Assembly: GCA_958295955.1 (NCBI GenBank)
Contig: OY282420.1
Location: 400,236 to 464,235, forward strand
Length of the DNA: 64,000 bases
From: an uncultured Bryobacterales bacterium
GTDB lineage: Bacteria; Acidobacteriota; Terriglobia; Bryobacterales; UBA6623
Direction: 5' to 3'
Both the position numbers and the translations under genes were made by a program. Under the pieces are notes generated by a model. The model was not told where the DNA came from. It saw nothing but the letters and a program-made list of their open reading frames with translations, and ran no database searches. Position 1 is the stretch's first letter. Every line of letters starts with the position of its first letter. Positions 1-38,168 of the stretch are shown piece after piece.

Positions 1-224
1 GCGGTTCTCCGTTTGTCACTCTCTCGCCAGGAGGGCCGGGCGAGCAAACGGAATACGCCGAACAACAAGCCGTTGAACCCGGCGCCCTCCCCCAAGGGCG
101 CGTCATGAGCCCGATTGACGATAACGGCCGCGATCTCGGCATAATCTCCTGCCTGCGCTTCCCTGACTACTCGCGCCACCCATGCGGGCGCCTTCAGGCT
201 GTCGATCGGCAGTCCGACCGCCAA
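1..224 (-). CDS. N-terminal part of a protein running off the left edge, possibly formyltransferase-like
   Basis: A minus-strand frame stays open from about 260 to position 1 without a stop and reads a plausible N terminus: 'LAVGLPIDSLKAPAWVARVV' followed by 'YAEIAAVIVN'. The short beta-strand, helix ('..W...VV.E...'), 'AEI..VI.N' pattern is reminiscent of the N termini of formyltransferase / glycosyltransferase-like enzymes of the glucosamine-inositolphosphorylceramide transferase type, but only about 75 residues are visible, so this is weak. The start is uncertain: no ATG or GTG lies in frame; a TTG at 222-224 is the first usable codon, about 25 bp after the stop of the radical SAM gene, which suggests one operon reading leftwards. 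Confidence 0.45.
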   Translation of the reverse strand, partial: MAVGLPIDSLKAPAWVARVVREAQAGDYAEIAAVIVNRAHDAPLGEGAGFNGLLFGVFRLLARPSWRESDKRRT

Positions 225-249
225 GGGCTTGCGCGGGGATGCCTCTGCG

Positions 250-1821
250 TCACGATGTCCCGAACAGGCGGCGTCCGAGGATGCGCTTGGAATACCACGC
301 CGCGCGCGAGCGGAGGAAATGCAACAGCATGGACTTCATTCGATGCAAGTCCCGATGGAGAAGTATCAGCGACAGCCTGCGCCATCGGCTGCGGCTGTTC
401 TTGCGCGCGACCAGCGAGGCCGCCTCCCGGACAAGTTCCTTGAAACGGTCCGGCGGGATAAAGGCGGTGAAGCAGCTTTTCGGGCTCTGGTGGTTGTGAA
501 TCGCGATATCGAAGTCGTCGTCCACCACCCCGAGTTCCTTGCATACCTGGAAGAGTTCGGAGCCCGGATAGGGAGTGAAGATGCCCAGCATGATCGTATC
601 GGCGTGAATCCGTTCGATGGCCGTCAGCGTATCTCTCAACGTCTCTTCCGTTTCCTCGGGAAAACCAACCATGAAGAACGCGCCGACTTCGACGCCCTTC
701 CGCCGACAGATGTCCATCGCCGCATACGCCTTCTCGATGGTATGCCCCTTCTTCACGCCGCGCAGGATGCGGTTGTTGCCGGACTCGACTCCGATGTTGA
801 CCCGCACGCAGCCCGAACGGCGCATGTGTTCGATCGACCGCTCCTTGACGACGCCGACCGTGATCTCGCAGCCCCATTTGAGTCCGGAACACTCGGTTTC
901 GATCAAGCCGCACAACTCCTCGATATAACGCGGGTCGATCCCGAAGGTGTCATCGTCGAAGTAAACGTACTTGACATCCCGGTCCATCAACGCCTTGAGT
1001 TCGCTCACGACGTTGGCCGGCGAGCGCCAACGGGTCTTTTGCGTCCAGATGGCTTTGGACTCGCAGAACGTGCAACTGTAAGGGCAGCCGCGAGCCGAGA
1101 AGACGTACCCGAAGGCTTCAGCCGGATAGCGCTCGTAGTCCCGGAGAACCCGCGGCGCCGCTTCCGCCGGGAAAGGCAACTCGTCGAGGTCGGGAATGTT
1201 GGCGCGCGGCGGCGTGAACGCCGTCCGGCCGTCCCGGCGGTAGGCAAGCCCCGCCACCTCGCTCAGCGGCGCGCCGCCTTGCCGCGCCTTGAGCAACTCG
1301 ACCAGCGTCGTCTCCCCTTCGCCCAACACCGCCGCGTCGATATCCGGGCAGTCCAACGCAGTCTCCGTGGACAAGGTGGCGTGGGGGCCGCCCAAGACGA
1401 CCAGCGTGCCGCCGTTGTGCTCCTTGGCGATGCGCGCAACCCTCATCGCGGACGGGAAGTCCTGAGTCTTGGAGCTCAAGCCGACGACGTCCGGATCGAA
1501 CTCCGTGATAGCCGACCGTATTTCTGTCCAGATCGGCGCCGCCGGGTCTTCCAGCGTCCGCAGGTAACGGTCCATGCCATCTCTGATGCGGGTGGTGTTG
1601 TCGAGCGTGATAGCGGCCTTCTTCGGATTGAAATCGGCGTTGTATGCTTGGACCTCCCAATTCGTCCACTTCAGAACCGCGCCCGATAGATAGCCAAGCG
1701 CCAAGGGGAACTTCACCTGCGAGAAGTTGTCGTGGTAGAGCCGATTGAAAGGCGGGGCGATGATCATGACCCGCTTGTGGGGGGGGGACATTTCGACCTG
1801 CTGCGACTGCCGCATTCCCAT
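250..1821 (-). CDS. B12-binding-domain radical SAM protein
   Basis: Predicted cobalamin-dependent radical SAM enzyme of about 523 residues. Residues about 15-200 look like a B12-binding Rossmann domain ('FPLALGYLSGAVLK', 'DPDVVGLSS', 'VLGGPHATL', 'AAVLGEGE'). The radical SAM core follows with the [4Fe-4S] ligands C246, C250 and C253 in 'ARGCPYSCTFCESK', then 'YVYFDDDTFG' and 'GVESGNNRILRGVKKGHT', and a GFP-like 'VGFPEETEET'. Such proteins act as methyltransferases or cyclases on unreactive carbons, often in lipid or secondary-metabolite pathways; the substrate cannot be read from the sequence. The basic C-terminal tail is unusual. Starts: ATG at 1821, 1815 and 1791 are all in frame; the last is followed directly by a run of nine C residues on the coding strand. 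It probably forms an operon with the methyltransferase upstream and the partial gene downstream. Confidence 0.85.
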   Translation of the reverse strand: MGMRQSQQVEMSPPHKRVMIIAPPFNRLYHDNFSQVKFPLALGYLSGAVLKWTNWEVQAYNADFNPKKAAITLDNTTRIRDGMDRYLRTLEDPAAPIWTEIRSAITEFDPDVVGLSSKTQDFPSAMRVARIAKEHNGGTLVVLGGPHATLSTETALDCPDIDAAVLGEGETTLVELLKARQGGAPLSEVAGLAYRRDGRTAFTPPRANIPDLDELPFPAEAAPRVLRDYERYPAEAFGYVFSARGCPYSCTFCESKAIWTQKTRWRSPANVVSELKALMDRDVKYVYFDDDTFGIDPRYIEELCGLIETECSGLKWGCEITVGVVKERSIEHMRRSGCVRVNIGVESGNNRILRGVKKGHTIEKAYAAMDICRRKGVEVGAFFMVGFPEETEETLRDTLTAIERIHADTIMLGIFTPYPGSELFQVCKELGVVDDDFDIAIHNHQSPKSCFTAFIPPDRFKELVREAASLVARKNSRSRWRRLSLILLHRDLHRMKSMLLHFLRSRAAWYSKRILGRRLFGTS

Positions 1822-24025: not shown

Positions 24026-24889
24026 TCACTCCGCCCCGTCTTCGATGCCGAGGATCATGCGCACGAGCCGCTCGAAGTCGGGCGCAAGCGGGGGAGGCTG
24101 CAACTCGACGCCGTGCGACAGAGAGTCCACGATGTGGGAGATGGTGGTCAACCGAGCGTATTTCTTGTCGTTCGCCGGGATCACGGTCCACGGAATCGCC
24201 TCGGTAGAGGTCAGCCGCAGCATGTCTTCGACCGCCGTTTCGTATTCCGCCCAGCGGGCGCGGTTGCGCAGGTCTTCCTCGCAGAGCTTCCAGCGCTTGA
24301 GCGGATGCTTGAAGCGGGCGCGGAAACGGGCCATCTGCTCGTCCTTGGTGATGTGCAGGAAGATCTTCACCACGCGGACGCCGTCGTCGAACAGCATGCG
24401 CTCGAATTCGTTGATCTCCTCGTAGGCGCGGCGCCATGCCGCCTCGGAAGCGAAATTCTCGACGCGCTCGACGAGCACGCGCCCGTACCACGAGCGGTCG
24501 AAAGCGACCAACTCCCCTGCTGCCGGCAGGCGGTTCCAGAAACGTTGCAGATAATGCTGCGCGAACTCCTGCGGGGTAGGCGCGGCGATGGAGCAGACCT
24601 TGAACATGCGCGGGTCCAGCGTCCAGTTCATGCGCCGGATGACGCCGCCCTTGCCCGCGGTGTCCCAGCCCTCAAAGACGATGACGGCGCGGCGTTTCTG
24701 AATCCAGTACGCCGTGGTCGCCTCTTTGAGTTGAAGCTGCAGCACGGCGAGCCTCTTCTCGTATTTGTCCCAACCGACGCGCGGCGTCATGTCCAATCCG
24801 GCGAGTGTCGGCGGATCGGCTTGCAGGCGGATGGGCGAGCGTTCGGGGGCGGCGGGAGCGCTCCGCTGCTTCAACGGGGTCGGACTCAT
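24026..24889 (-). CDS. polyphosphate kinase 2
   Basis: 287 residues from ATG at 24889 (a GTG at 24904 is also possible). Transfers phosphate between polyphosphate and nucleotides. It has the PPK2 Walker A '[19 protein letters not shown]', the lid region 'PTPQEFAQHYLQRFWNRLP', Walker B 'VAFDRSWYGRVLVERVENF', and 'KIFLHITKDEQMARF'. All catalytic blocks are intact, so this is the functional copy; two broken copies of a related gene lie at about 28.3-28.7 kb and 37.9-38.1 kb. Class (I-III) cannot be told reliably by eye. Confidence 0.92.
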   Translation of the reverse strand: MSPTPLKQRSAPAAPERSPIRLQADPPTLAGLDMTPRVGWDKYEKRLAVLQLQLKEATTAYWIQKRRAVIVFEGWDTAGKGGVIRRMNWTLDPRMFKVCSIAAPTPQEFAQHYLQRFWNRLPAAGELVAFDRSWYGRVLVERVENFASEAAWRRAYEEINEFERMLFDDGVRVVKIFLHITKDEQMARFRARFKHPLKRWKLCEEDLRNRARWAEYETAVEDMLRLTSTEAIPWTVIPANDKKYARLTTISHIVDSLSHGVELQPPPLAPDFERLVRMILGIEDGAE

Positions 24890-25066
24890 GGCGGGGTCAA
24901 ACACCTAGTTTAGCCTTGTTTGGGAATGGTTTTGCCGGAGACCGCGGACGCTGCGCGCCGCGAGCGGGCGACGCCGGCGCAATGGGCGCGGTCGGGCGAT
25001 CGACGAAAAAGCCGCAAGCGCCCGCGGGTGTAAAATAGCAAGCAAGACATACTTCCGGCAGAGCGC

Positions 25067-25543
25067 ATGCAAACGAAGGAAACGAGTGTCGAAGGCCGGA
25101 GGAAATGGCTGTTGCGCGGCATGGCTTCCGCCGTCGCCGCCTCTTTCGGCGCATTGACCGGCTTTGCCTTTGCCTTCCTGCTGCCCCGGCGGGAGCGCGC
25201 GGTCGAGCAGCGCATTTTCCTGGGCTTCGCCTCGGCGCTCGGCGCCGGAGAGAGCCGTCTGCTCACGCTGCCGTCCGGCGAGCGGATGGTTCTCGCCAAC
25301 ACCGGGCGCAGCGGCGGGGCCGGGGAGACTTTTCAGGCGTTTTCGAGCCGCTGCCCGCATCTCGGCTGCCAGGTCCATTATGAGGCCGGCGAAGACCGCT
25401 ACCTGTGCCCCTGCCATCAGGGCGTCTTCGACAAGGACGGCAAGGCGGTCTCCGGCCCTCCGGCAAAGGCGGGGCAGCAGCTTGCCGCCTACCGCATCGA
25501 AGCGGACGGCAACTCTTTGTACGCCGTCATCGACCTGCTATGA
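25067..25543 (+). CDS. Rieske [2Fe-2S] iron-sulfur protein of a cytochrome bc-type complex
   Basis: 158 residues with an uncleaved N-terminal anchor ('GMASAVAASFGALTGFAFAF', preceded by 'RRKWLLRG', Tat-like). The two cluster-binding loops are 'SRCPHLGCQVHY' and 'CPCHQGVFDKDG', including the Cys and His ligands. Its stop overlaps the ATG of the cytochrome b gene (ATGA). Takes electrons from quinol and passes them to a c-type acceptor, here presumably the octaheme cytochrome encoded two genes on. Confidence 0.93.
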   Translation: MQTKETSVEGRRKWLLRGMASAVAASFGALTGFAFAFLLPRRERAVEQRIFLGFASALGAGESRLLTLPSGERMVLANTGRSGGAGETFQAFSSRCPHLGCQVHYEAGEDRYLCPCHQGVFDKDGKAVSGPPAKAGQQLAAYRIEADGNSLYAVIDLL

Positions 25544-26595
25544 GCGCGGAGAACCGCAGCGCAGGCGCATGGCTCCGCTCGCGGATTCCGGTGGACGAGC
25601 AAGCGCTCACGGCTATCGGCAGCGAGCCGATTCCGGGCCATCTCAAGCGCTGGTGGTGGTGCATCGGCGGGACTCCGGCCTACCTGTTTCTGGTGCAGGT
25701 CGCCGGCGGCATCCTGCTGACCTTCTACTACGTGCCCAGCCAGGAGCTCGCTTACGAGAGCGTCGCGGCAATCGGCGAGCAAGTCCGCTTCGGCTGGTAT
25801 CTGCGCAGCGTTCACAAGTGGGCCTCTCACTTGATGATCGCCACGCTGCTGCTGCACATGATGCGGGTTTTCTTTACCGGCGCCTACCGCGCGCCGCGGG
25901 AACTGAATTGGATGGTCGGCTGCGCCCTGCTGATCTTGACCTTGGGGGCGGGCTTCACCGGCTACTCGCTCGTCTGGGAGCAGCTTTCGTACTGGGGCGC
26001 GACCGTGGCCGCCAACCTGTCGGCGGCCGTGCCCTTCGTCGGCGAACGGCTGGCGGAATTTCTGCGCGGCGGCCCGACCGTGGGGCAGAACATGCTGACG
26101 CGGCTCTTCGTGCTGCACGTCGGCGCGATTCCCACGCTGACGATGGGCTGCATCGCCATCCACATCTACCTGGTTCGGGCGCACGGGGTGACCGAACTCG
26201 ACCTGCCGAAGAAAGAGAGAAAGACGTTCCCTTTCTTCCCGGACCATTTTCTTACTGAACTGGCGCTGGCGCTCTTCCTGATGTTCCTGCTCACGTGCCT
26301 GGCGCTGATCTTTCCGGCCGGCCTGTCGGAGAAGGCGAACCCGCTGGAGACGCCGGAGCACATCAAGCCCGAGTGGTATTTCCTGTGGGCCTTTCGTTGG
26401 CTCAAGCTGATGACCGAGCGGACGGCCATCGTCACGCAGGGCATCTTCCTGGCCGCGATCGTTTTCTGGCCCTTCGTGGACAAATGGCTGCGCCGCCGCA
26501 ATCCGCGAAGCGAGGCGAGCGTTGCCTTCGGCGCCGCGGGAGTGGCGCTGCTGCTGGCGCTGACCGTGTGGGAGGCGTTCGATTCGATTCCGTAA
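25540..26595 (+). CDS. cytochrome b of a Rieske/cytochrome b complex
   Basis: 351 residues. Heme-ligand histidines are seen in 'SVHKWASHLMIATLLLHMMRVF' (split here: 'VHKWASHLMI', 'LLLHMMRVF') and in 'LFVLHVGAIPTLTMGCIAIHIYL'; the Qo-site motif PEWY is present in 'HIKPEWYFLWAFRWLK'. The N-terminal half corresponds to cytochrome b6-like and the C-terminal half to a short subunit-IV-like part, fused in one chain. The frame is open upstream through the Rieske gene, but the overlapping ATG at 25540 is the credible start. Operon with the Rieske and octaheme genes (13 bp to the next). Confidence 0.93.
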   Translation: MSAENRSAGAWLRSRIPVDEQALTAIGSEPIPGHLKRWWWCIGGTPAYLFLVQVAGGILLTFYYVPSQELAYESVAAIGEQVRFGWYLRSVHKWASHLMIATLLLHMMRVFFTGAYRAPRELNWMVGCALLILTLGAGFTGYSLVWEQLSYWGATVAANLSAAVPFVGERLAEFLRGGPTVGQNMLTRLFVLHVGAIPTLTMGCIAIHIYLVRAHGVTELDLPKKERKTFPFFPDHFLTELALALFLMFLLTCLALIFPAGLSEKANPLETPEHIKPEWYFLWAFRWLKLMTERTAIVTQGIFLAAIVFWPFVDKWLRRRNPRSEASVAFGAAGVALLLALTVWEAFDSIP

Positions 26596-26608
26596 TGAGG
26601 AGGCGATT

Positions 26609-28084
26609 ATGACTCTTGAGAAAAAACAGACCGTGATCATCGCTCTCGCCGGCCTGTTCATGCTTTCGCTGCTGCTCGTCGCTTGGGTCGAAGGGGGCCG
26701 CCGGCGCGTGCTGCGCGCTCCCGATGCGGTGGTCACCGCGGAGAACGCCGATTGCGTGGACTGCCATAACGTGAAGTCTGCGGGCATCGTGCGCCAGTGG
26801 GAAATCAGCGAACACGCCCGGACGGGAATCGGCTGCCTTCAGTGCCATGCCGCGGAGCCCGGCGACGCGGACGGCTACATGCACGAGGGAACGCTGATCG
26901 CCACCATCGTCACGCCGCAGGACTGCGGGACGTGCCATGCACGGGAAACGGCCGAGTTCGAGGCCAGCCACCATGCCAAGGGCGGAGAGATTCTGGGCAG
27001 CCTGGACAACGTTCTTGCCGAAGTCGTCGAAGGATTTACCCGTTTCGACGCGCAGGGCAACAAGGTCGAGACGTCCGCGGCCGCGGTGAGCGGCTGCCTG
27101 CAATGCCACGGCTCAGAGGTGCGCGTGCTGGAGGACGGCAAGTTGGACCCCGCAACCTGGCCCAATACCGGCATCGGACGGATCAACCCGGACGGCTCGC
27201 GCGGCTCTTGCACGGCCTGCCACTTGCGGCACAGCTTCTCCCGGGCGCAGGCTCGCGCGCCGGAAAACTGCGGCCGCTGCCATCTCGGCCCGGACCATCC
27301 CCAACTGGAGGTTTACCAATCTTCCAAGCACGGCATCGCATTCGAAGCCAACCGCGCGCGGTTCGAGCCGCTGATGGAAGAGAAGGAATGGGTTCCGGGA
27401 CGCGATTTCGAGCAGGGCCCCACCTGCACGACATGCCATATGAGCGCGACCCGCACCCTGCCGTTGACTCACGACGTGGGCGAGCGCATCTCCTGGACCT
27501 TGCGGCCGGCCGTATCCGAGAAGATCGACGCGGCGGCGGCCAAGCAGGGCAAGAGCGTGAAGAGTTGGCAGGACCGCCGCGGCGACATGCAGGAAGTATG
27601 CGCAAGCTGCCATGCGCCGGAATGGGTCGGGAACTGGTACGAGCAGTTCGACAACCTGGTCAACCTGTACAACGACAAGTTCGGACGGCCCGCGAGCGCA
27701 CTGTTCCAACAGGCCCGCGCCGACGGGCTGCTGACCCCGGTCGAATTCGACGAAGAGCTGGAGTTCACCTATTTCTTCCTGTGGCATCACGAGGGGCGGC
27801 GCGCCCGGCACGGCGCGGCGATGATGGGTTCGGACTACACCCAGTGGCACGGCATGTACGAGGTCGCCCACCGCTTTTACATGGAATTCGTTCCCCAGTT
27901 GCGGGAGTTGATCGCGCATCACCGCGGCGGCGGCAAGGCGCCCGCCGCCCGCCGGCTCGCCGCCGCCCTGGACGAAACGCTCAACTCGGAGATGCACCGC
28001 TGGTTCCTGGGAAAAACGAGCAGCGCGGAGTCGGCCGCCCGCGCCGCGGCCGCGGCGGAGTTCAAGAAGCGCTACTCGCAGTGA
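26609..28084 (+). CDS. octaheme c-type cytochrome, HAO-like
   Basis: 491 residues, ATG with 'AGGAGG' 8 bases upstream. A single N-terminal hydrophobic helix ('VIIALAGLFMLSLLLVAW') exports or anchors it. Eight CxxCH heme-binding motifs occur at residues about 49, 76, 106, 163, 201, 221, 273 and 331. The late block 'HHEGRRARHGAAMMGSDYTQ' and 'WHGMYEVAHRFYMEF' is characteristic of hydroxylamine-oxidoreductase-like octaheme cytochromes. Some HAO-family members oxidise hydroxylamine, others reduce nitrite, and only experiment can tell. Encoded with Rieske and cytochrome b, so it may be the electron-exchanging partner of that quinol complex. Confidence 0.88.
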   Translation: MTLEKKQTVIIALAGLFMLSLLLVAWVEGGRRRVLRAPDAVVTAENADCVDCHNVKSAGIVRQWEISEHARTGIGCLQCHAAEPGDADGYMHEGTLIATIVTPQDCGTCHARETAEFEASHHAKGGEILGSLDNVLAEVVEGFTRFDAQGNKVETSAAAVSGCLQCHGSEVRVLEDGKLDPATWPNTGIGRINPDGSRGSCTACHLRHSFSRAQARAPENCGRCHLGPDHPQLEVYQSSKHGIAFEANRARFEPLMEEKEWVPGRDFEQGPTCTTCHMSATRTLPLTHDVGERISWTLRPAVSEKIDAAAAKQGKSVKSWQDRRGDMQEVCASCHAPEWVGNWYEQFDNLVNLYNDKFGRPASALFQQARADGLLTPVEFDEELEFTYFFLWHHEGRRARHGAAMMGSDYTQWHGMYEVAHRFYMEFVPQLRELIAHHRGGGKAPAARRLAAALDETLNSEMHRWFLGKTSSAESAARAAAAAEFKKRYSQ

Positions 28085-28305: not shown

Positions 28306-28720
28306 GTGGAAATCGCAGCCGGCCGGGCGTACCTCTTGTCGTTCGCCGAGATCGCGTTCCAGGGGATCGTGTCGATGGAGGTCAGCCGCAGCATGTCCTC
28401 CGTCGCCGTTGCGTATTCCGCCCACCGCGAGCAATTACGCAGATTTCCCTCGCAGAGCTTCCGGCGCCTGAAACGGTCTCGGCAGCGAGTCATCCGCTCA
28501 TCCTTCACGATGCGCATGCCTCTGTCGAAGAGCATGCGTTCGAACTCGTCGATCTCTCCGTAGGCGCGGCGCTTCCGGAGCCGGTAGGCCGCGGCCACTT
28601 CCTTGAGGCGAAGTTGGAGCCGAGACAGTTCCTTTTCGTACGCGCCTCGGTCGGCGCGCGGCGTCATGTCCGATCCGGCGAGTTGCGAGCCTTCGGCGTG
28701 GTATGACAGCAGCGGCAAGC
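28306..28720 (-). pseudogene. broken polyphosphate kinase 2 gene
   Basis: Reading leftwards, '[19 protein letters not shown]', '[10 protein letters not shown]' then jumps straight to 'YGEIDEFERMLFD', 'RRKLCEGNLRNCSRWAEYAT' and 'IPWNAISANDKRYARP'. Compared with the intact PPK2 at 24026-24889, about 90 codons from just after 'KRRA' to just before 'YEEINEFERM' are missing, which removes Walker A, the lid and Walker B. A second short loss removes the 'IFLHIT' strand. The 3' end is lost too. It cannot be active. It is much closer to the fragment at 37888-38094 than to the intact gene. Confidence 0.8.
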
Positions 28721-29170
28721 GCAACGGTCGCCGCCGTCTCGCCGGCGTTTTTCAACTGGGTCAACAACGCCGACGGGCGCAACCCGCTGATGGCGCTGCA
28801 CGGCGGCGGCCCCGACCTGGTCGGCGCGCCCGGCCTGCTGCCCGGAGCCGAGTTCACGCCGGCCGCGCCCGGCGAGGTCGTCACGCTGTACGGGACGGGT
28901 TTCGGGCCGACCGAGCCGGCTATCGCTGCGGGTCGCATCCCGGTCGCGGCGGCCAATCTGACGAACGCGGTCGCCTTTACCGTGGGCGGCATCGCCGTTG
29001 CCGCGCAAGACGTGCTCTACGCCGGCGCGTCGCCCTGCTGCGCCGGCCTCTATCAATTCACGGTGCGCCTGCCCGCCGACGTCCCCGACGGCGACGCAAC
29101 CGTCACCGCCGTCGTGCAGGGCGTCTCCACGCCCGAAGGACCGTACCTCACCGTCCGCCGCCCGCAGTGA
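28703..29170 (+). pseudogene. truncated TIGR03437-type C-terminal domain (remnant of a third NHL gene)
   Basis: A 155-codon open frame that begins inside the domain: 'ASATVAAVSPAFFNWVNNAD', 'GAPGLLPGAEFTPAAPGEVV', 'TLYGTGFGPTEPAIAAGRIP', ending 'STPEGPYLTVRRPQ'. It corresponds to the last part of the two complete NHL genes that follow, without signal peptide or NHL repeats. The left junction fuses it back to back with the PPK2 remnant at about 28700. The ATG at 28703 lies in PPK2-derived sequence and is probably accidental. Its first 30 bases match 35473-35500 in gene 3 more closely than gene 2, evidence of mosaic exchange. Confidence 0.75.
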
Positions 29171-29304
29171 CCGCGCAAATCGTCGCCTTGCTCGACGAGC
29201 AAATCGCCCGCGGGCGCAGCACGCCGGGAGCGAAGCCGCCAAACGACGTTCCCGAGGTCGCAGTGCATCGCAACGCGCGGCCCTGCTCAAGCGGTAGCGG
29301 TTGA
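29167..29304 (+). pseudogene. possible sulfatase C-terminal tail (45 codons), copy A
   Basis: A GTG overlaps the preceding stop (GTGA) and opens a 45-codon frame whose 'DEQIARGRSTPGAKPPNDVP' resembles the last residues of arylsulfatase-like proteins ('..GRSTPG...ND..V'). No sulfatase body is present. It may be a relic fused behind the NHL gene during duplication, or a short translated ORF; it is conserved in copy B (32517-32654), where two amino acids differ. Confidence 0.4.
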
Positions 29305-29413
29305 ATATTCAGCAGACGCGGGGCGTTTCATTTTAGGGGAAATTTCATCGCATTTTATTGGGGATTTTACAGCCCCGCAGGCCGCGAAGAATTCCGGGCC
29401 GCGCGTTTTGCCG

Positions 29414-29440
29414 TTGACAGGGCGTTGGCGGATAGAATAC
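29414..29440 (+). promoter_or_regulatory. putative sigma-70-type promoter of NHL gene 2
   Basis: TTGACA at 29414-29419 and GAATAC at 29435-29440 are separated by 15 bp, 12 bp ahead of the ATG at 29452. The -35 hexamer is perfect and is kept in copy B (32764) although the spacer has changed, which supports it. The spacing is short and the distance to the ATG leaves almost no 5' leader. Confidence 0.4.
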
Positions 29441-29451
29441 CTTTGTCGCAC

Positions 29452-32400
29452 ATGAGCGGCACGCAGCACAATAATTTTCTTTCGATGCAAAAAGATTGGC
29501 GCGAGAGCTCGACTCCGCGCCCGGATAATCTTAGCGCGGGCCGCGCGTTTTCCGCTCTTCTCTCTCCCTTCCCGGACTCGGTTCTCTTCGCTCTCTTCTT
29601 CAGGTTCTCCGCTCTTGCCGCCCCGCTCAGGCGGTCTTGCTCTGCGCTGACCCTTGCCGCGCTGTCTGTAGCGGTTGCCGGTGCGCAGCCCGCGGGCGAT
29701 TGGACCATCGAGACGGTCGCAGGGGGCGGCAGCTCCCTCGGGGACGGGGACAACGTCGCGGCTGTGGCGGCGCTACTGAACGACCCCACCGGCGTGGCGC
29801 TGGACGGCGCGGGCAACCTGTACATCGCCGATGCCGAAAACCACCGCATCCGCAAGGTGGACGCTGCGGGGGTGATCTCCACGGTGGCGGGCGCCGGGAC
29901 GGAAGGCTACAACGGGGACGGCGGCGCGGCTACGGCGGCGCAACTGAACTACCCCGTAGGCGTGGCGGTGGACGGCTCGGGCAACCTGTACATCGCCGAT
30001 TTGGGCAACCACCGCATCCGCAAGGTGGACTCTGCGGGGGGGATCTCCACGGTGGCGGGCGCCGGGAGCACCGGGGAGTCCGGCGGCGGCTTCGGCGGGG
30101 ACGGCGGCCCGGCTACGGCGGCGCAACTGCGCAGCCCCGCCGGCGTGGCGCTGGACGGCGCGGGCAACCTGTACATCGCCGATGCTTTGAACAACCGCAT
30201 CCGCAAGGTGGACTCTGCGGGGACGATCACCACGGTGGCGGGCGCCGGGACGGAAGGCTTCAGCGGGGACGGCGGCCCGGCTACGGCGGCGCAACTGTAC
30301 CGGCCCGCCGGCGTGGCGCTGGACGGAGCGGGCAACCTGTACATCGCCGATTTTGGCAACAACCGCATCCGCAAGGTGGACGCTGCGGGGGTGATCTCCA
30401 CGGTGGCGGGCGCCGGGAGCACCGGGGAGTCCGGCGGCGGCTTCGGCGGGGACGGCGGCCCGGCCACTGCGGCGCGGCTGTACCTCCCCAGGGGCGTGGC
30501 GCTGGACGGCGCGGGCAACCTGTACATCGCCGATCTGCTCAACCACCGCATCCGCAAGGTGGACGCTGCGGGGGTGATCTCCACGGTGGCGGGCGCCGGG
30601 AGCACCGGGGAGTCCGGCGGCGGCTTCGGCGGGGACGGCGGCCCGGCCGTTGCGGCGCGACTGAACTTCCCCGTAGGCGTGGCGGTGGACGGCTCGGGCA
30701 ACCTGTACATCGCCGATACGGACAACGACCGCATCCGCAAGGTGGACGCTGCGGGGGTGATCTCCACGGTGGCGGGAGGAGGCTACGGCGGGGACGGCGG
30801 CCCGGCTGTGGCGGCGCAACTGGACTGGCCCTTCGACGTGGCGCTGGACGGAGCGGGCAACCTGTACATCGCCGATTGGCTCCACAACCGCATCCGCAAG
30901 GTGGACGCTGCGGGGGTGATCTCCACGGTGGCGGGAGGTGGGTCGTCATTGGGGGACGGCGGCCCGGCTACGGCGGCGCAACTGAACTTCCCCGAAGGCG
31001 TGGCGCCGGACGGAGCCGGCAACCTGTACATCGCCGATACATACAACAACCGCATCCGCAAGGTGGACGCTGCGGGGGTGATCTCCACGGTGGCGGGAGG
31101 TGGGTCGTCATTGGGGGACGGCGGCCCGGCTACGGCGGCGCAACTGAGCGGACCCAGTGGCGTGGCGGTGGACGGAGCGGGCAACCTGTACATCGCCGAT
31201 AGGGGCAACCGGCGCATCCGCAAGGTGGACGCTGCGGGGGTGATCTCCACGGTGGCGGGAGGTGGGTCGTCATTGGGGGACGGCGGCCCGGCTACGGCGG
31301 CGCGACTGAACTTCCCCGTAGGCGTGGCGCTGGACGGCTCGGGCAACCTGTACATCGCCGATACGGACAACAACCGCATCCGCAAGGTGGACGCTGCGGG
31401 GGTGATCTCCACGGTGGCGGGCGACGGGACATGTTGCTACAGCGGGGACGGCGGCCCGGCCGTGGAGGCGCAACTGAGCGGACCCAGTGGCGTGGCGGTG
31501 GACGCCGCGGGCAACCTGTACATCGCCGATACGGAAAACGAACGCATCCGCAAAGTGGACGCTGCGGGGGTGATCTCCACGGTGGCGGGCGACGGGACGC
31601 ATGGCTTCGGCGGGGACGGCGGCGCGGCTACGGCGGCGCAACTGCGCAGACCCCGTGGCGTGGCGCCGGACGGAGCGGGCAACCTCTACATCGCCGATAC
31701 TTGGAACGATCGCATCCGCCGCTTGACGCCGCCCGCCATGCCCACGCCCAGCATCTCTGCGGGCGGCGTCGTGCTGGCCAGCGGAACCCCGCTGGTGAGC
31801 CGCATCTCGCCCAACGCGATCATTTCCGTCTTCGGACAGGGTTTCGCCGGGACGCGGACGCTGAACCCCGTCATCGACGCCGACGGCGGCATTGCCGTCA
31901 ACCTGGCCGCTACCTGCCTGCAGATCGGCGGCAAGCGCGCCCCGCTGTTCATAGTGACTCCGGGGCAGATCAACGCCCAGGTTCCGCACGACCTGGCGCC
32001 GGGAGAGGCGGCGTTGACCGTCACCCGCGGCTGCGGAACGACGAACGCACAGCGCAGCCCGGCGGAAACGGTTGCGGTCCGTACAGTCTCGCCGGCCTTC
32101 TTCAACTTCGTGAGCAACCCCGACGGGCGCAACCCGGTCGTGGCGCTGCACGGCGGAGGGCCGGGCTTTGTGGGAGCGCCCGGCCTGCTTCCCGGCGTAG
32201 AGTTCACGCCCGCCGCGCCGGGCGAGGTCGTCACGCTGTACGGGACCGGTTTCGGGGCGACCGAACCGGCCCTGGAAACGGGCGAGATACCGTCCCGTGC
32301 GGTCGATCTGGCGAACGCGGTCTTGTTTACCTTCGGCGGCATTGCGGTTCCTCCGGCGGACATCCTGTACAAGGGCGCGGCGCCCGGCCTCGCCGGGGTC

Positions 32401-32520
32401 TATCAGTTTGCGGTGCGCCTGCCGTCCAACCTCCCCGCCGGCAACGCAACCGTCACGGCCACAGTGCAGGGCGTCTCCACGCCCGAAGGACCGTACCTCA
32501 CCGTCCGCCGCCCGCAGTGA
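29452..32520 (+). CDS. secreted NHL-repeat protein with TIGR03437-type C-terminal domain (1022 aa)
   Basis: ATG chosen because the same start is conserved in the following paralogue. A long n-region leads to the signal sequence 'LTLAALSVAVAGAQPAGDW'. Twelve NHL repeats follow (about 54-63 residues each, residues about 110-760), each with 'GVALDGAGNLYIAD', two variable residues, 'N.RIRKVDAAG' and 'VISTVAG'. The dipeptides after YIAD run AE, LG, AL, FG, LL, TD, WL, TY, RG, TD, TE, TW. Repeats are almost identical as DNA outside those codons. The C-terminal about 230 residues are the Solibacter-type domain ('ISPNAIISVFGQGF', 'APLFIVTPGQINAQVPHDLA', 'VVTLYGTGFGATEPA'). Twelve repeats suggest two six-bladed propellers that bind ligands outside the cell. 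No catalytic residues recognised. Confidence 0.88.
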   Translation: MSGTQHNNFLSMQKDWRESSTPRPDNLSAGRAFSALLSPFPDSVLFALFFRFSALAAPLRRSCSALTLAALSVAVAGAQPAGDWTIETVAGGGSSLGDGDNVAAVAALLNDPTGVALDGAGNLYIADAENHRIRKVDAAGVISTVAGAGTEGYNGDGGAATAAQLNYPVGVAVDGSGNLYIADLGNHRIRKVDSAGGISTVAGAGSTGESGGGFGGDGGPATAAQLRSPAGVALDGAGNLYIADALNNRIRKVDSAGTITTVAGAGTEGFSGDGGPATAAQLYRPAGVALDGAGNLYIADFGNNRIRKVDAAGVISTVAGAGSTGESGGGFGGDGGPATAARLYLPRGVALDGAGNLYIADLLNHRIRKVDAAGVISTVAGAGSTGESGGGFGGDGGPAVAARLNFPVGVAVDGSGNLYIADTDNDRIRKVDAAGVISTVAGGGYGGDGGPAVAAQLDWPFDVALDGAGNLYIADWLHNRIRKVDAAGVISTVAGGGSSLGDGGPATAAQLNFPEGVAPDGAGNLYIADTYNNRIRKVDAAGVISTVAGGGSSLGDGGPATAAQLSGPSGVAVDGAGNLYIADRGNRRIRKVDAAGVISTVAGGGSSLGDGGPATAARLNFPVGVALDGSGNLYIADTDNNRIRKVDAAGVISTVAGDGTCCYSGDGGPAVEAQLSGPSGVAVDAAGNLYIADTENERIRKVDAAGVISTVAGDGTHGFGGDGGAATAAQLRRPRGVAPDGAGNLYIADTWNDRIRRLTPPAMPTPSISAGGVVLASGTPLVSRISPNAIISVFGQGFAGTRTLNPVIDADGGIAVNLAATCLQIGGKRAPLFIVTPGQINAQVPHDLAPGEAALTVTRGCGTTNAQRSPAETVAVRTVSPAFFNFVSNPDGRNPVVALHGGGPGFVGAPGLLPGVEFTPAAPGEVVTLYGTGFGATEPALETGEIPSRAVDLANAVLFTFGGIAVPPADILYKGAAPGLAGVYQFAVRLPSNLPAGNATVTATVQGVSTPEGPYLTVRRPQ

Positions 32521-32654
32521 CCGCGCAAATCGTCGCCTTGCTCGACGAGCAAATCGCCCGCGGGCGCAGCACTCCGGGAGCGAAGCTGCCAAACGACGTT
32601 CCCGAGGTCGCAGCGCATCGCAACGCGCGGCCCTGCTCAAGCGGTAGCGGTTGA
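32517..32654 (+). pseudogene. possible sulfatase C-terminal tail (45 codons), copy B
   Basis: Second copy of the 45-codon frame that overlaps the NHL-gene stop as GTGA. Reads 'RGRSTPGAKLPNDVPEVAAH'; only two residues differ from copy A (P to L, V to A). See copy A for interpretation. Confidence 0.4.
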
Positions 32655-32763
32655 ATATTCAGCAGACGCGGGGCGTTTCATTTTAGGTGAAATTTCACCG
32701 CATTTTATTGGGGATTTTACAGCCCCCGCAGGCCACGAAAAATTCCGGGCCGCGCGTTTTGCC

Positions 32764-32790
32764 TTGACAAGGCGCCGGCGGATGGAATAC
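32764..32790 (+). promoter_or_regulatory. putative promoter of NHL gene 3
   Basis: TTGACA at 32764-32769 and GAATAC at 32785-32790 with the same 15-bp spacing as in copy A, 11 bp before the ATG at 32802. Conservation of both hexamers over a changed spacer is the main support. Confidence 0.4.
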
Positions 32791-32801
32791 CTTTGTCGCA
32801 C

Positions 32802-35800
32802 ATGAGCGGCACGCAGCACAATAATTTTCTTTCGATGCAAAAAGAATTGGCGCGAGAGCCTGCTCCGTGCCCGGATAATCTTAGCGCGGGCCGCGCGTTT
32901 TCCGCTCTTCTCTCTCCCTTCCCGGACTCGGTTCTCTTCGCTCTCTTCTTCAGGTTCTCCGCTCTTGCCGCCCCGCTCAGGCGGTCTTGCGCTGCGCTGG
33001 TCCTCGCCGCGCTGTCTGTAGCGGTTGCCGGGGCGCAGCCCGCGGGCGATTGGATCATCGAGACGGTCGCAGGGAGCGGCAGCTCCCTCGGGGACGGGGA
33101 CAACGGCGCGGCTGTGGCGGCGCTACTGGACAACCCCTCCGGCGTGGCGGTGGACGGAGCGGGCAACCTGTACATCGCCGATAGGGGCAACCACCGCATC
33201 CGCAAGGTGGACGCTGCGGGGGTGATCTCCACGGTGGCGGGCGACGGGACGCAAAGCTACGGCGGGGACGGCGGCCCGGCTACGGCGGCGCAACTCAGCT
33301 CCCCCGCAGGCGTGGCGCTGGACGGAGCGGGCAACCTGTACATCGCCGATAGGTCCAACCACCGCATCCGCAAGGTGGACGCTGCGGGGGTGATCACCAC
33401 GGTCGCGGGCGACGGGACGCAAGGCGGCGGCGGCTACGGCGTCTTCGGCGGGGACGGCGGCCCGGCTACGGCGGCGCAACTGAACTTCCCCCAAGGCGTG
33501 GCGCTGGACGGAGCGGGCAACCTGTACATCGCCGATTACTTCAACCACCGCATCCGCAAGGTGGACGCTGCGGGGGTGATCTCCACGGTGGCGGGCGACG
33601 GGACGCAAAGCTACGGCGGGGACGGCGGGGACGGCGGCCCGGCTACGGCGGCGCAACTGAACTTCCCCCAAGGCGTGGCGCTGGACGGCGCGGGCAACCT
33701 GTACATCGCCGGCAACGGCCGCATCCGCAAGGTGGACGCTGCGGGAGTGATCACCACGGTGGCGGGAGGTGGGTCGTCATTGGGGGACGGCGGCCCGGCC
33801 GTTGCGGCGCTACTGAGCGGACCCTACGGCGTGGCGCTGGACGGAGCGGGCAACCTTTACATCGCCGATAGGAACAACCACCGCATCCGCAAGGTGGACG
33901 CTGCGGGGGTGATCTCCACGGTGGCGGGCGACGGGACCTACGGCTTCGGCGGGGACGGCGGCCCGGCTGTGGCGGCGCAACTGGACACACCCTATGGCGT
34001 GGCGGTGGACGGAGCGGGCAACCTGTACATCGCCGATAGAAACAACCACCGCATCCGCAAGGTGGATTCTGCGGGGGCGATCTCCACTGTGGCGGGCGGA
34101 GGACCAATAGGGGACGGCGGCGCGGCCGTGGCGGCGCAACTGTACTCCCCCCAAGGCGTGGCGCCGGACGGCGCGGGCAACCTGTACATCGCCGATTTGG
34201 GCAACCGGCGCATCCGCAAGGTGGACGCTGCGGGGGTGATCTCCACGGTGGCGGGCGCCGGCACGCGCGGTTACGGCGGGGACGGCGGCGCGGCTACGGA
34301 GGCGCAACTGGGACCCCGCGGCGTGGCGTTGGACGGAGCGGGCAACCTGTACATCGCCGATACTTCCAACCACCGCATCCGCAAGGTGGACGCTGCGGGG
34401 GTGATCTCCACGGTGGCGGGCGACGGGACGCGCGGCTCCGGCGGGGACGGCGGCCCGGCCGTTGCGGCGCAACTGGACCTCCCCAATGGCGTGGCGCTGG
34501 ACGGCTTGGGCAACCTGTACATCGCCGATACGGGCAACCACCGCATCCGCAAGGTGGACGCTGCGGGGGTGATCTCCACGGTGGCGGGCGACGGCGAGGT
34601 CGGCTTCGGCGCGGGCGGTTACGGCGGGGACGGCGGCCCGGCTACGGCGGCGCAACTCAGCTTCCCCGAAGGCGTGGCGGCGGACGGAGCGGGCAACCTG
34701 TACATCGCCGATAGAAGCAACCACCGCATCCGCAAGGTGGACGCTGCGGGGGTGATCTCCACGGTGGCGGGCAGCGGCGAGGTCGGCTTCGGCGAGGGCG
34801 GCTACGGCGGGGACGGCGGCCCGGCCGTTGCGGCGCAACTGGACTGGCCCATCGGCGTGGCGCTGGACGGAGCGGGCAACCTGTACATCGCCGATTATTT
34901 GAACCACCGCATCCGCAAGGTGGACGCTGCGGGGGTGATCTCCACGGTGGCGGGCGACGGGACGCGCGGCTACGGCGAGGTCGGCTTCGGCGAGGTCGGC
35001 TTCGGCGAGGGCGGCTTCGGCGGGGACGGCGGCCCGGCCGTTGCGGCGCAACTGAACCGGCCCGCCGGCGTGGCGCTGGACGGCGCGGGCAACCTGTACA
35101 TCGCCGATTCCGGAAATGATCGCATCCGCCGCTTGACGCCGGCGGCCATGCACAGCATTTCCCCGGACGGCATCGTGCTGGCCACCGCAACCCCGCGGGT
35201 AAACCGCATCTCCCCCAACGCCATCATCTCCGTCTTCGGCCAAGACTTGGCCCCGCCGGGAACGCTCGCCACCGCCACTCTCAACCCCGCAGGCCGGGTT
35301 GCCGCCAACCTGGCCGCTACCTGCCTGGAGATCGGCGGCAAGCGCGCCCCGCTGTTCTATGTCGATCCCACTCAGATCAACGCCCAGGTTCCGCACGACC
35401 TGGCCCCGGGAGAGGCGGCGTTGATCGCCATTCGCGGCTGCGGAACGGCCAACGAACAGCGCAGCGCAGCGGCAAGCGCAACGGTCGCCGCCGTCTCGCC
35501 GGCGTTCTTCAACTTCGTGAGCAACCCCAACGGGCGCAACCCGGTCGTGGCGCTGCACGGCGGAGGGCCGGCGCTGATCGGCGCGCCCGGCCTGCTTCCC
35601 GGCGCGGAGTTCACGCCGGCCGCGCCCGGCGAGGTCGTCACGCTGTACGGGACCGGTTTCGGGGCGACCGAACCGGCCCTGGAAACGGGCGAGATACCGT
35701 CCCGTGCGGTCGATCTGGCGAACGCGGTCTTGTTTACCTTCGGCGGCATTGCGGTTCCTCCGGCGGACATCCTGTACAAGGGCGCGGCGCCCGGCCTCGC

Positions 35801-37403
35801 CGGGGTCTATCAGTTTGCGGTGCGCCTGCCGTCCAACCTCCCCGACGGCAACGCGGGCGTCGTGGCGACTGTCAACGGCGTTCCCACGCCCTCAGGGCCC
35901 TTCCTCACCGTCCGCGTTGCCGGCGGGGGCGGGACGACGACGGACGATCACGGCGACACGCCCGCCGAGGCGACCGCTCTGTCTCCAGGATCCCCTGCGC
36001 AGGGCCGCATCGAAACCGGCCGCGACGTGGACTATTTCCGGCTGCGGACCACCGCGGAGAGCAACGTCGAGATCTATACCAGCGGCTCCCTCGATACGAC
36101 GGGCTCGCTGCACGATTCCGCGAACAACAGAATCGTCGAGAACGACGATGGCGGGACGGGTAGCAATTTCCGCATTGCGAGGCGGCTTTCCGCGGGCGTG
36201 TATTACATCGCAGTAAGAAGCTCCGGCTCCCGCACGGGAAGCTACACCCTGCACGCGAGGGTTACCGACGCCCCGCCGCCGTCGAACCGCGCCGGCGGCC
36301 CGCTCACGCCCGGACAGCCCGCTAATTTCCGCTTGGGGCCGGTTGACAACCCGACGATCTTTCGCGGAGATTACTCATACCGGCTGGAGGTCCCTGAAAA
36401 TGCCTCCCGCGTAACCTTCGCCCTGAACTCCGCCGACCCCGATGTGGACGTGGATTTGTTCGTCCGTTTCGGAGAGGACAACGTTCTTCGAGATAGGAGA
36501 GTTGTTTCGGACTATTCTTCCGAGACGACATCCGGCAACGAGCGGATCGTCATTACCCGCTCCTCCGATCCCCCGCTCCGCCCCGGAACCTACTATGCCT
36601 CGCTGGCGCTATTCGACACGGGCGTCGTTGCCGAAGGCACGCTCACGGCAACCATAGAAACCGGCGGGGGCGGGACGACGACGGACGATCACGGCGACAC
36701 GCCCGCCGAGGCGACCGCTCTGTCTCCAGGATCCCCTGCGCAGGGCCGCATCGAAACCGGCCGCGACGTGGACTATTTCCGGCTGCGGACCACCGCGGAG
36801 AGCAACGTCGAGATCTATACCAGCGGCTCCCTCGATACGAGGGGCTCGCTGCACGATTCCGCGAACAACAGAATCGTCGAGAACGACGATGGCGGGACGG
36901 GTTCGAATTTCCGCATTGCGAGGCGGCTTTCCGCTGGCGTGTATTACATCGCAGTAAGCAGCTTCGGCTCCCGCACGGGAAGCTACACCCTGCACGCGAG
37001 GGTTACCGCCGCCCCGCCGCCGTCGAACCGCGCCGGCGGCCCGCTCACGCCCGGACAGCCCGCTAATTTCCGCTTGGGGCCGGTTGACAACCCGGCGCTC
37101 TTTCGCGGAGATTACTCATACCGGCTGGAGGTCCCCGCCAACGCCTCCCGCGTAACCTTCGTCCTGAACTCCGCCGACCCCGATGTGGACGCGGATTTGT
37201 ATGTCCGTTTCGGAGAGGACAACGTTGTTCGAGATGGGAGAGTTGTTTCGGACTATTCTTCCGTGACGACATCCGGCAACGAGCGGATCGTCATTACCCG
37301 CTCTTCCGATCCCCCGCTCCGCGCCGGAACCTACTATGTCTCGCTGTCGCTATTCGATACGGGCGTCGTTGCCGAAGGCACGCTCACGGCAACCGTGCAG
37401 TGA
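32802..37403 (+). CDS. giant secreted NHL-repeat protein with TIGR03437-type domain and duplicated PPC modules (1533 aa)
   Basis: Same leader and signal peptide as the preceding gene. Twelve NHL repeats (residues about 110-775); the dipeptides after YIAD are RG, RS, YF, a shortened repeat with 'YIAGNGRIRK', then RN, RN, LG, TS, TG, RS, YL, SG. The inter-blade loops also vary in length, with runs such as 'GEVGFGEVGFGEGGFGG'. The TIGR03437-type domain follows, with over 200 bases identical to gene 2. The C terminus has two copies of a 247-residue unit, each with two pre-peptidase C-terminal (PPC)-like domains: 'DVDYFRLRTTAESNVEIYTS', 'AGVYYIAVRSSGSRTGSYTL' and 'YSYRLEVPENASRVTFAL', 'PDVDVDLFVRFGEDNV'. 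Likely a cell-surface or secreted binding protein. Confidence 0.88.
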   Translation: MSGTQHNNFLSMQKELAREPAPCPDNLSAGRAFSALLSPFPDSVLFALFFRFSALAAPLRRSCAALVLAALSVAVAGAQPAGDWIIETVAGSGSSLGDGDNGAAVAALLDNPSGVAVDGAGNLYIADRGNHRIRKVDAAGVISTVAGDGTQSYGGDGGPATAAQLSSPAGVALDGAGNLYIADRSNHRIRKVDAAGVITTVAGDGTQGGGGYGVFGGDGGPATAAQLNFPQGVALDGAGNLYIADYFNHRIRKVDAAGVISTVAGDGTQSYGGDGGDGGPATAAQLNFPQGVALDGAGNLYIAGNGRIRKVDAAGVITTVAGGGSSLGDGGPAVAALLSGPYGVALDGAGNLYIADRNNHRIRKVDAAGVISTVAGDGTYGFGGDGGPAVAAQLDTPYGVAVDGAGNLYIADRNNHRIRKVDSAGAISTVAGGGPIGDGGAAVAAQLYSPQGVAPDGAGNLYIADLGNRRIRKVDAAGVISTVAGAGTRGYGGDGGAATEAQLGPRGVALDGAGNLYIADTSNHRIRKVDAAGVISTVAGDGTRGSGGDGGPAVAAQLDLPNGVALDGLGNLYIADTGNHRIRKVDAAGVISTVAGDGEVGFGAGGYGGDGGPATAAQLSFPEGVAADGAGNLYIADRSNHRIRKVDAAGVISTVAGSGEVGFGEGGYGGDGGPAVAAQLDWPIGVALDGAGNLYIADYLNHRIRKVDAAGVISTVAGDGTRGYGEVGFGEVGFGEGGFGGDGGPAVAAQLNRPAGVALDGAGNLYIADSGNDRIRRLTPAAMHSISPDGIVLATATPRVNRISPNAIISVFGQDLAPPGTLATATLNPAGRVAANLAATCLEIGGKRAPLFYVDPTQINAQVPHDLAPGEAALIAIRGCGTANEQRSAAASATVAAVSPAFFNFVSNPNGRNPVVALHGGGPALIGAPGLLPGAEFTPAAPGEVVTLYGTGFGATEPALETGEIPSRAVDLANAVLFTFGGIAVPPADILYKGAAPGLAGVYQFAVRLPSNLPDGNAGVVATVNGVPTPSGPFLTVRVAGGGGTTTDDHGDTPAEATALSPGSPAQGRIETGRDVDYFRLRTTAESNVEIYTSGSLDTTGSLHDSANNRIVENDDGGTGSNFRIARRLSAGVYYIAVRSSGSRTGSYTLHARVTDAPPPSNRAGGPLTPGQPANFRLGPVDNPTIFRGDYSYRLEVPENASRVTFALNSADPDVDVDLFVRFGEDNVLRDRRVVSDYSSETTSGNERIVITRSSDPPLRPGTYYASLALFDTGVVAEGTLTATIETGGGGTTTDDHGDTPAEATALSPGSPAQGRIETGRDVDYFRLRTTAESNVEIYTSGSLDTRGSLHDSANNRIVENDDGGTGSNFRIARRLSAGVYYIAVSSFGSRTGSYTLHARVTAAPPPSNRAGGPLTPGQPANFRLGPVDNPALFRGDYSYRLEVPANASRVTFVLNSADPDVDADLYVRFGEDNVVRDGRVVSDYSSVTTSGNERIVITRSSDPPLRAGTYYVSLSLFDTGVVAEGTLTATVQ
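35921..36661 (+). repeat. 741-bp in-frame tandem repeat of the PPC module, unit 1
   Basis: Begins with 'cggcgggggcgggacgacga' and is followed directly by a near-identical second unit. Codes for 247 residues made of two PPC-like beta domains and a short Gly/Thr linker. Long stretches (for example the DDHGDTPAEATA region) have no base differences from unit 2. Confidence 0.85.
36662..37402 (+). repeat. 741-bp in-frame tandem repeat of the PPC module, unit 2
   Basis: Second copy, ending at the stop codon of the gene. Differences from unit 1 are few (for example DTT to DTR, PTI to PAL, VDVDLF to VDADLY), so the duplication is recent or homogenised. Confidence 0.85.
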
Positions 37404-37650
37404 TGTTTGCGGCTGCGTCCGTCCGGGGAAAGGGGAAGCGAACGATGACGAACGCAAGCAAGGGCGGCGCTTGCGTTGCTCGCCCCTCGATTCCCGCTGG
37501 ACCGTTCTCGACTGTCCGCCTAAGAGGATGAAGCTGCAATCCCGTCTCGATCATGGAGAGCGTCGGCATTGTCATGATCGCGGGGACCGGCGAGAGCGAA
37601 TTGCGCGGCGACGGCGGGCTGCCGGGCGCCGAAATGGGTAGGCGACCGGC
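37404..37650. other. intergenic remnant DNA, no gene recognised
   Basis: No credible gene. On the minus strand a frame reads 'SLSPVPAIMTMPTLSMIETG' and 'LQLHPL', which may be a very decayed version of the PPK2 C-terminal end ('IPANDKK...VELQPPPL' in the intact gene), but the similarity is too weak to call. Confidence 0.3.
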
Positions 37651-37890
37651 ATGAACAGTTGGAAGGATGCCCACAGCTACATGAGTTGGTTGAGCCGGAA
37701 GACGGGAAAACAGTACCGCTTGTTGAGCGAGGCGGAGTGGGAGTACGCCGCGCGAGCGGGGACACGGACGCGGTACAGCTTCGGGGACGAGATAACGCCG
37801 AGCGATGCGAATTACGGCTGGAATACAAGAAAGACGCAGCCGGTAGGGAGCTATGAGGCAAACGGGTTTGGGCTGTACGACATGCACGGT
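37651..37890 (+). pseudogene. fragment of a formylglycine-generating enzyme (SUMF1/FGE) family gene
   Basis: About 80 codons match the middle of FGE-sulfatase domain proteins: '[20 protein letters not shown]', '[16 protein letters not shown]', '[16 protein letters not shown]', '[18 protein letters not shown]'. Both the N terminus with the start of the domain and the C-terminal part after 'LYDMHG' are absent; at about 37890 the sequence switches to PPK2 DNA on the opposite strand. A TAG stop sits in frame just upstream of the ATG. Not functional. Confidence 0.8.
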
Positions 37891-38094
37891 GCGTCGGATG
37901 ACGCCGCCCTTGCCCGCAGCGTCCCAGCCTTCGAACACGACGACGGCGCGGCGCTTCCGGAGCCGGTAGGCCGCGGCCACTTCCTTGAGGCGAAGTTGGA
38001 GCCGAGACAGTTCCTTCTCGTACGCGCCTCGGTCGGCGCGCAGCGTCATGTCCGATCCGGCGAGTTGCGAGCCTTCGGCATGGCATGACAGCAG
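37888..38094 (-). pseudogene. 5' fragment of polyphosphate kinase 2 gene
   Basis: Reading leftwards, '[20 protein letters not shown]', '[20 protein letters not shown]', '[19 protein letters not shown]' and 'VIRRT', then the frame runs into the FGE fragment. Walker A is kept, but everything after it is lost. It is nearly identical to the 5' part of the pseudogene at 28306-28720, and both end outward at the same 'atgacagcag' boundary, so the two come from one duplicated locus. Confidence 0.8.
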
Positions 38095-38168
38095 CGCGGG
38101 CGGAACGCTGCGATCAAGGCTGAGAGCAAGCTCCAGGGCTGACACGGCCCCTGCCGTTGCGCTATTTT

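Follow-up and report, generated by a model that had tools for sequence, protein, structure and literature searches.

Within a window of 64,000 nucleotides (positions 400236–464235 of one contig in the 4.58 Mb, three-contig genome of an uncultured Bryobacterales bacterium), we examined two tandem NHL-repeat genes on the plus strand, here called A (29425–32520) and B (32793–37403), each encoding 12 NHL blades between a leader and a Soli_cterm domain. An earlier note on this DNA had delimited the repeats as 29452–35125, an interval that begins with the leader of A and closes with the final blade of B, short of the end of gene B at 37403. The frame of A opens with TTG at 29425, and by eye ATG at 29452 or 29485 is the likelier start. 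The leader of A (29452–29682) has a hydrophobic, signal-like segment ending in ...SVAVAGAQ, and the leader of B a similar stretch (both judged by eye). The blade arrays occupy 29758–31722 in A and 33108–35132 in B and match the NHL profile PF01436 at 265.6 and 269.8 bits (cut-off 20). They are followed by Soli_cterm domains (TIGR03437, cut-off 29.05) at 31780–32508 (E = 7.5e-47, 160 bits) and 35184–35915 (E = 3e-48, 164.5 bits). Gene B has in addition a repeated C-terminal extension (35920–37349), with 300-nt copies at 35920–36219 and 36661–36960 (98% identity) and a stretch matching PPC, best at 37119–37349 (PF04151, E = 4.9e-17). The spacer between the genes (32521–32792) is a duplicate of the one upstream of A, and spacer plus leader are 94.5% identical between the two. 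A Pfam scan of A and B gave no match to a NOD (NACHT or NB-ARC), effector or kinase domain.

Anchoring the repeats on GNLYIA gave 12 blades in each gene, as the earlier note had counted, and a 45-codon alignment of all 24. The blades are near-identical except at six hypervariable ("hot") columns, 8, 9 and 11 in the motif LxxPxG and 26, 27 and 29 in YIADxxNxR (in blade 1 of A, positions 29779–29784, 29788–29790, 29833–29838 and 29842–29844), which hold 6, 10, 11, 8, 9 and 6 kinds of residue, respectively. The residue pairs previously listed after YIAD are correct, and three of them occur twice (TD in A, RN and RS in B); the shorter variable stretch said to lie between blades exists and resolves into the three hot codons of LxxPxG. 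The codons around them are nearly frozen: a single codon is used in 24/24 blades at each of G19, N20, Y22, I23, A24, R30, I31 and R32, D25 is GAT in 23/23 blades (blade 4 of B, B4, lacks it), and the codons lying between hot ones are CCC in 24/24 and AAC in 22/24. The claim that all repeats share the same codons for GNLYIAD and RIRKVDAAG holds at most positions; the exceptions are L21 (CTG in 22/24), the last blade of either gene, which reads RIRRLTPxA in place of RIRKVDAAG, and B4, with a two-codon deletion spanning the B-C variable site. Blade 8 of B lacks one codon of LxxP. Moderate variation is found at columns 1, 3, 6 and 15 (2, 2, 3 and 4 residues), and the loops of the other face hardly vary in A and B.

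Between these 24 blades, nonsynonymous differences per nonsynonymous site (pN) reach 0.598 at hot codons versus 0.061 at the remaining, cold codons, where synonymous differences per synonymous site (pS) stand at 0.089; the ratio of hot pN to cold pS has a bootstrap range over blades of 5.4–9.1. Such between-blade differences are a mix of age, exchange and selection, and hot codons have a high pS as well (0.50 by Nei–Gojobori counting, NG86), which is to be expected when saturated codons are counted by that method. Codon bias as the cause of the frozen codons was rejected on two grounds. Synonymous codon choice differs by position (Asp is GAT at column 25, GAC at 16 and nearly always GAC at 35), and in two simple paralogue pairs of this genome, L014/L015 and L017/L018, pS within blades is close to that outside them (0.050 and 0.071; 0.100 and 0.096).

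The two genes belong to a large family. A search of the genome for NHL genes scored 150 of 291 candidates, all of which matched (150/150), so that family counts are lower bounds; 23 stretches plus the window yielded 26 open reading frames (ORFs) with 214 blades, among them at least 21 ORFs with 5 or more blades dispersed over the genome. A Soli_cterm-like tail is carried by 17 of these 21, and 15/21 have exactly 6, 12 or 18 blades, as do 64/84 ORFs with at least 6 blades found in the best 80 of 292 related loci from other genomes. The same six columns show the highest mean difference (0.68–0.89; next 0.58) across the 19 ORFs from this genome that have at least 6 blades; across the 84 foreign ORFs the top five places go, in order, to columns 11, 9, 26, 27 and 8, with column 29 in tenth place. 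Hot pN exceeds cold pS in 21/21 ORFs, the smallest excess being 1.08-fold. Gene A is among the most uniform arrays (cold pS 0.074), with a lower value in this genome only in the 5-blade L011 (0.052); the lowest among the 84 foreign ORFs is 0.159. Tyr/Trp/Phe, Arg, Asn and Ser abound at five of the hot columns. When one gene of each simple pair is omitted, Tyr, Trp and Phe make up 151/881 residues (17%) at columns 8, 9, 11, 26 and 27 versus 11/1380 (0.8%) at eight variable cold columns. Distinct combinations account for 180 of 188 hot sextets.

By title, the best 80 of the 292 loci come from many phyla, and the eight among them with a match past query residue 1000 (L115, L119, L120, L128, L133, L135, L142 and L149) are titled, for example, Bryobacterales, Solibacter, Sulfopaludibacter or Terriglobia, all of them names within the Acidobacteriota. 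Thirty genomes of relatives were available for comparison, none of the same genus. In two relatives orthologous repetitive NHL arrays (L081, L082) are broken into separate open frames, with the array uninterrupted in others; these two are decaying copies. Another locus, L097, has an NHL open frame of 3289 residues, with 35 blades counted within 3050 residues.

We mapped the variable codons of A on an AlphaFold2 model (945 residues, built on an alignment of 18 sequences; mean predicted local distance difference test score 82.6, predicted template modelling score 0.60). In 12/12 blades the D-A loop contains columns 8 and 9, strand A has column 11 as its second residue, and the B-C turn holds columns 26, 27 and 29. 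According to the portion of PMC6107167 available to us, the B-C and D-A loops form the cup of an NHL propeller, a common binding site; the hot columns, in or beside these loops, are therefore predicted to lie on the cup face. The alignment, the paralogue pairs and this mapping together support the earlier note's view of a homogeneous background with concentrated change, which here falls on one face. Model residues 16–366 superpose on the propeller of NHLRC2 (Z 43.3, root-mean-square deviation 1.9, 318 aligned), given as six-bladed in the same portion of that source (PMC6107167). Other top structural matches among the Foldseek candidates, NHL propellers as well, were a teneurin-like protein (Z 42.4), Pizza (at most 37.1) and PknD (34.1). 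The preference for 6, 12 and 18 blades suggests tandem six-bladed propellers, and the 12 blades of A are predicted to form two. A single 12-bladed ring is not favoured by the alignment ranges (16..366 for NHLRC2, 6..683 for most Pizza rows), which, as far as ranges alone can tell, fit a first ring of blades 1–6 and a second of blades 7–12 closed by the N-terminal strand.

Selection is tested most cleanly by recent gene pairs within this genome whose blades still correspond one to one. In L014/L015, hot codons carry 29.2 nonsynonymous differences over 167.3 sites versus 53.8 synonymous differences over 856.7 sites elsewhere (hot pN/pS 2.77, codon bootstrap 1.60–4.41), and in L017/L018 32.2 over 176.3 versus 86.5 over 883.5 (1.86, bootstrap 1.16–2.70). 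The flanks of L017/L018 differ at 31/606 bases (0.051) versus a hot pN of 0.18, and the hot excess stays. Values of pS outside the blades were set aside for L009/A and L020/B, as 41% and 29% of the residues concerned are different and their alignment is uncertain. In the A/B comparison, blade 1 differs at 8/18 hot bases versus 24/581 surrounding bases, 8 of these 24 falling in the 146 bases before ATG 29452.

Comparisons between species gave a contrary outcome. In a repetitive array shared by five related genomes, which retains 49–75% of its hot residues, hot pN (0.11–0.31) exceeds cold pN (0.03–0.14) yet stays below overall pS (0.24–0.50) in 10/10 pairs. Two groups of orthologous six-bladed NHL genes, one from six and one from five genomes, served as controls; in them 0–2 of 36 hot residues differ in 25/25 pairs and 94–100% of hot residues are kept; hot pN (0–0.023) is lower than cold pN (0.005–0.087) in 24/25 pairs, the exception being L090/L091 (0.023 versus 0.014). 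NHL proteins therefore differ in this face, which some conserve and others change quickly. The diversifying selection proposed by the earlier note is supported at fixed blade positions in the two recent paralogue pairs (ratios of about 2.8 and 1.9), and is not upheld in the between-species orthologues.

Repeat homogenisation, also proposed in that note, was examined through the register of the blades, scored as the number of the 12 blades for which the diagonal (blade i versus blade i) is the best or co-best match. Register is kept in L014/L015 and L017/L018 (cold codons 11/12 and 7/12; hot codons 12/12 and 10/12), stands at 5/12 cold and 5/12 hot for B versus L020, and is lost between A and B (cold 3/12, hot 1/12) despite their 94.5% identical leader and spacer; blade turnover therefore contributes to the A/B differences. 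The divergence of leader and spacer (5.5%) is close to that of the cold codons (5.9%), so synonymous levels alone are no proof of homogenisation between A and B. Judged by cold codons, the nearest blade lies solely in another gene for 67/89 blades of eight ORFs, much of which would be expected from gene duplication alone. Among four 12-blade paralogues (48 blades), the closest match belongs to another gene with a shifted index in 19 cases and with an unchanged index in 15; it stays within one gene in 5, and 9 are tied. Genome-wide, identical half-sites are more frequent than in shuffles for the D-A loop (14 pairs versus 4.8) and the B-C loop (32 versus 12.0), and the cross-loop pair of columns 11 and 26 shows no excess (27 versus 32.1). 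Within the window genes an excess is seen for D-A (3 versus 0.16), with 0 versus 0.41 for B-C. Taken together, blade turnover by recombination is indicated in the A/B group, with re-amplification as an alternative that these patterns do not separate from it. In the simple pairs, which are less uniform, copying of cassettes is not favoured as the main source of hot changes, with a verbatim copy found elsewhere for 3/27 changed half-sites; change there is mainly by point substitutions.

Our preferred explanation, to which we give a probability of roughly 0.58, is that A and B are members of a large family of paralogous, probably exported twin-propeller proteins with Soli_cterm tails, in which recombination among blades would keep the backbone uniform and turn blades over, while selection would favour replacement of cup residues. 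Export is suggested by the signal-like leaders, and the cup would bind a variable extracellular ligand, such as a protein or glycan from a competitor, a host, prey, a phage or kin. The signal-like leader, the mapping to the cup face and the residue make-up of the hot columns suggest a role in surface recognition, as the earlier note had supposed. Such proteins would work in the way of the fungal HET-D/E/R receptors, whose WD40 repeats evolve in concert and diversify, minus the NOD or effector domain. We hold more tentatively, and would not bet on, the fuller joint claim of an exported twin-NHL repertoire renewing its binding faces by blade turnover and selected cup change, with up to 72 variable residues per 12-blade protein, and serving extracellular variable recognition (self/non-self, prey, phage or glycan) without reverse transcriptase or NOD-like receptor (NLR) signalling.

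Several observations weigh against this explanation. The deletion in B4 shows that loss of codons at a variable site is tolerated, and loops outside the cup, near-invariant in A and B, vary in some paralogues (columns 17, 18, 36 and 37, mean 0.35–0.41); such loops are not frozen in the foreign ORFs either. In L014/L015 cold pN (0.070) exceeds cold pS (0.050), and relaxed constraint may therefore play a part. NG86 counts at saturated codons are rough, and with a GC content of 0.88 at third positions of cold codons pS may understate neutral change, a problem that the L017/L018 flank test avoids; part of the downstream flank used there looks, by eye, like a small open frame. The A/B differences in blade 1 could have been imported from other blades. 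Finally, besides the five-genome array, in which hot pN falls below pS throughout, the orthologues L099/L096 likewise show hot pN above cold pN and below pS.

The most serious competitor, which we nevertheless judge unlikely, is ordinary recent amplification of blades, after which free loop residues drift faster with no selection for diversity. Highly repetitive propellers are known in many families, as the accessible part of PMC9218822 describes, and both the 10/10 pairs of the five-genome array and the raised cold pN of L014/L015 speak for it. It accounts less well for a hot pN above pS in two recent pairs and above flank divergence in L017/L018, the one pair tested in that way, for the strong aromatic enrichment of the hot columns, for the near-invariance of the other-face loops in A and B, or for the distinctness of nearly all hot sextets. 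A second alternative shares the binding-face reading with the preferred explanation and supposes each cup to be tuned to its own fixed ligand, the paralogues having specialised once after duplication with no continuing race. The retention of hot residues in the five-genome array, and still more in the two other orthologue sets, would fit; continuing turnover is suggested instead by the loss of A/B register at a spacer divergence of about 5%, and we consider this alternative improbable. That targeted mutagenesis, for example by a diversity-generating retroelement, writes the variable codons is hardly credible: change is on the scale of codons adjoining invariant ones and more often multi-base at hot codons (21/46 changed codons versus 69/284 others), yet an RVT_1 profile search of the genome gave no match (3/14 control genomes matched), which strengthens the earlier note's rejection of reverse-transcriptase mutagenesis; the hot-codon changes in paralogue pairs involve bases other than adenine, and hot columns occur in many dispersed ORFs.

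Around the two genes, a remnant of a third unit lies upstream on the plus strand (28703–29304), consisting of the 3' end only, a Soli_cterm-type tail plus spacer without blades. Positions 28736–29450 share 86.9% identity with the A tail plus spacer, and 28709–29158 share 80.1% with the tail of B; a Pfam scan of the remnant ORF (28603–29304) gave no match. Large antisense ORFs run across both blade arrays, and between the last blades of B (34590–35030) there are in-frame glycine-rich expansions with GEVGF units. A multihaem cytochrome gene (26609–28084, plus strand) adjoins the NHL genes and is 80.7–83.0% identical in four relatives. In the stretches beside this cytochrome in the four relatives, six downstream ORF queries found no match. 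In two upstream stretches of relatives, ORF 25489–26787 was matched at 49%, and PPK2 and two other upstream ORFs found no match; no NHL blades were found in these six cytochrome-side stretches. The PPK2 gene itself (24026–24904, minus strand) scores 282.5 bits, and beyond the NHL genes ORF 37384–38145 (minus strand) has a short PPK2 match (45.5 bits) and is possibly a broken PPK2 copy.

Several known systems share parts of this design. Our searches of an open-licence library turned up no publication describing diversifying selection on bacterial NHL propellers, and NHL was not found in the accessible portion of PMC6344855. The portion of PMC5524777 at hand counts NHL among eukaryotic-like domains and reports none in its acidobacterial bin; a link to sponge symbiosis was dismissed, as nothing ties the window to a sponge. 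The TIGR03437 model, which gives a clear C-terminal domain in A and B, names its domain as uncharacterised and is silent on propellers. The best PDB sequence match is the NHL domain of a teneurin-like protein (9ifo, 9pt5), which we take to be a YD-repeat protein; it shares the blade type of A and B, GDGGPATxAQL..P.. LYIAD..N.RIR, and sits in much longer chains (2144 and 2237 residues). The NHL sensor domain of PknD (1rwl) and the Pizza proteins (3ww9), which are designed, have a six-bladed NHL fold like that of A (Z 34–37), but form no hypervariable gene family, and A and B lack a kinase match. Three Pizza sequences differ at the equivalents of column 11 (Asn or Ser) and column 26 (His or Lys), both hot in A and B, and also of column 22 (Tyr or Trp), which is cold; several Pizza entries, by title, hold metal ions or polyoxometalates.

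The repetitive propellers of PMC9218822, in whose accessible main text the word NHL is absent, resemble A and B in recent amplification, few synonymous differences and tandem propellers arising from one array. They differ in that variation in A and B is concentrated at fixed cup codons across a gene family. The evolutionary regime resembles that of the fungal nwd genes HET-D, HET-E and HET-R, whose WD40 repeats, in the portion of PMC4986451 available, show high identity, exchange within and between paralogues and diversifying selection at a few positions of the interaction surface (four per repeat, versus six in the blades of A and B). Here, exchange is indicated for the A/B group and such selection was not upheld between species, and A and B are NHL rather than WD40 proteins, bacterial and probably exported; having no NOD or effector domain match, they are not members of the HET/NLR class. 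If the preferred explanation is right, secreted propellers serve a bacterial lineage as a changeable binding repertoire that evolves in the manner described for non-self receptors of fungi. The blade's six hot columns, two of which match columns that vary among Pizza variants, would then be a direct and swappable read-out of specificity, and with the blade type widespread and five of the six columns most variable there too, this would have relevance beyond the present genome.

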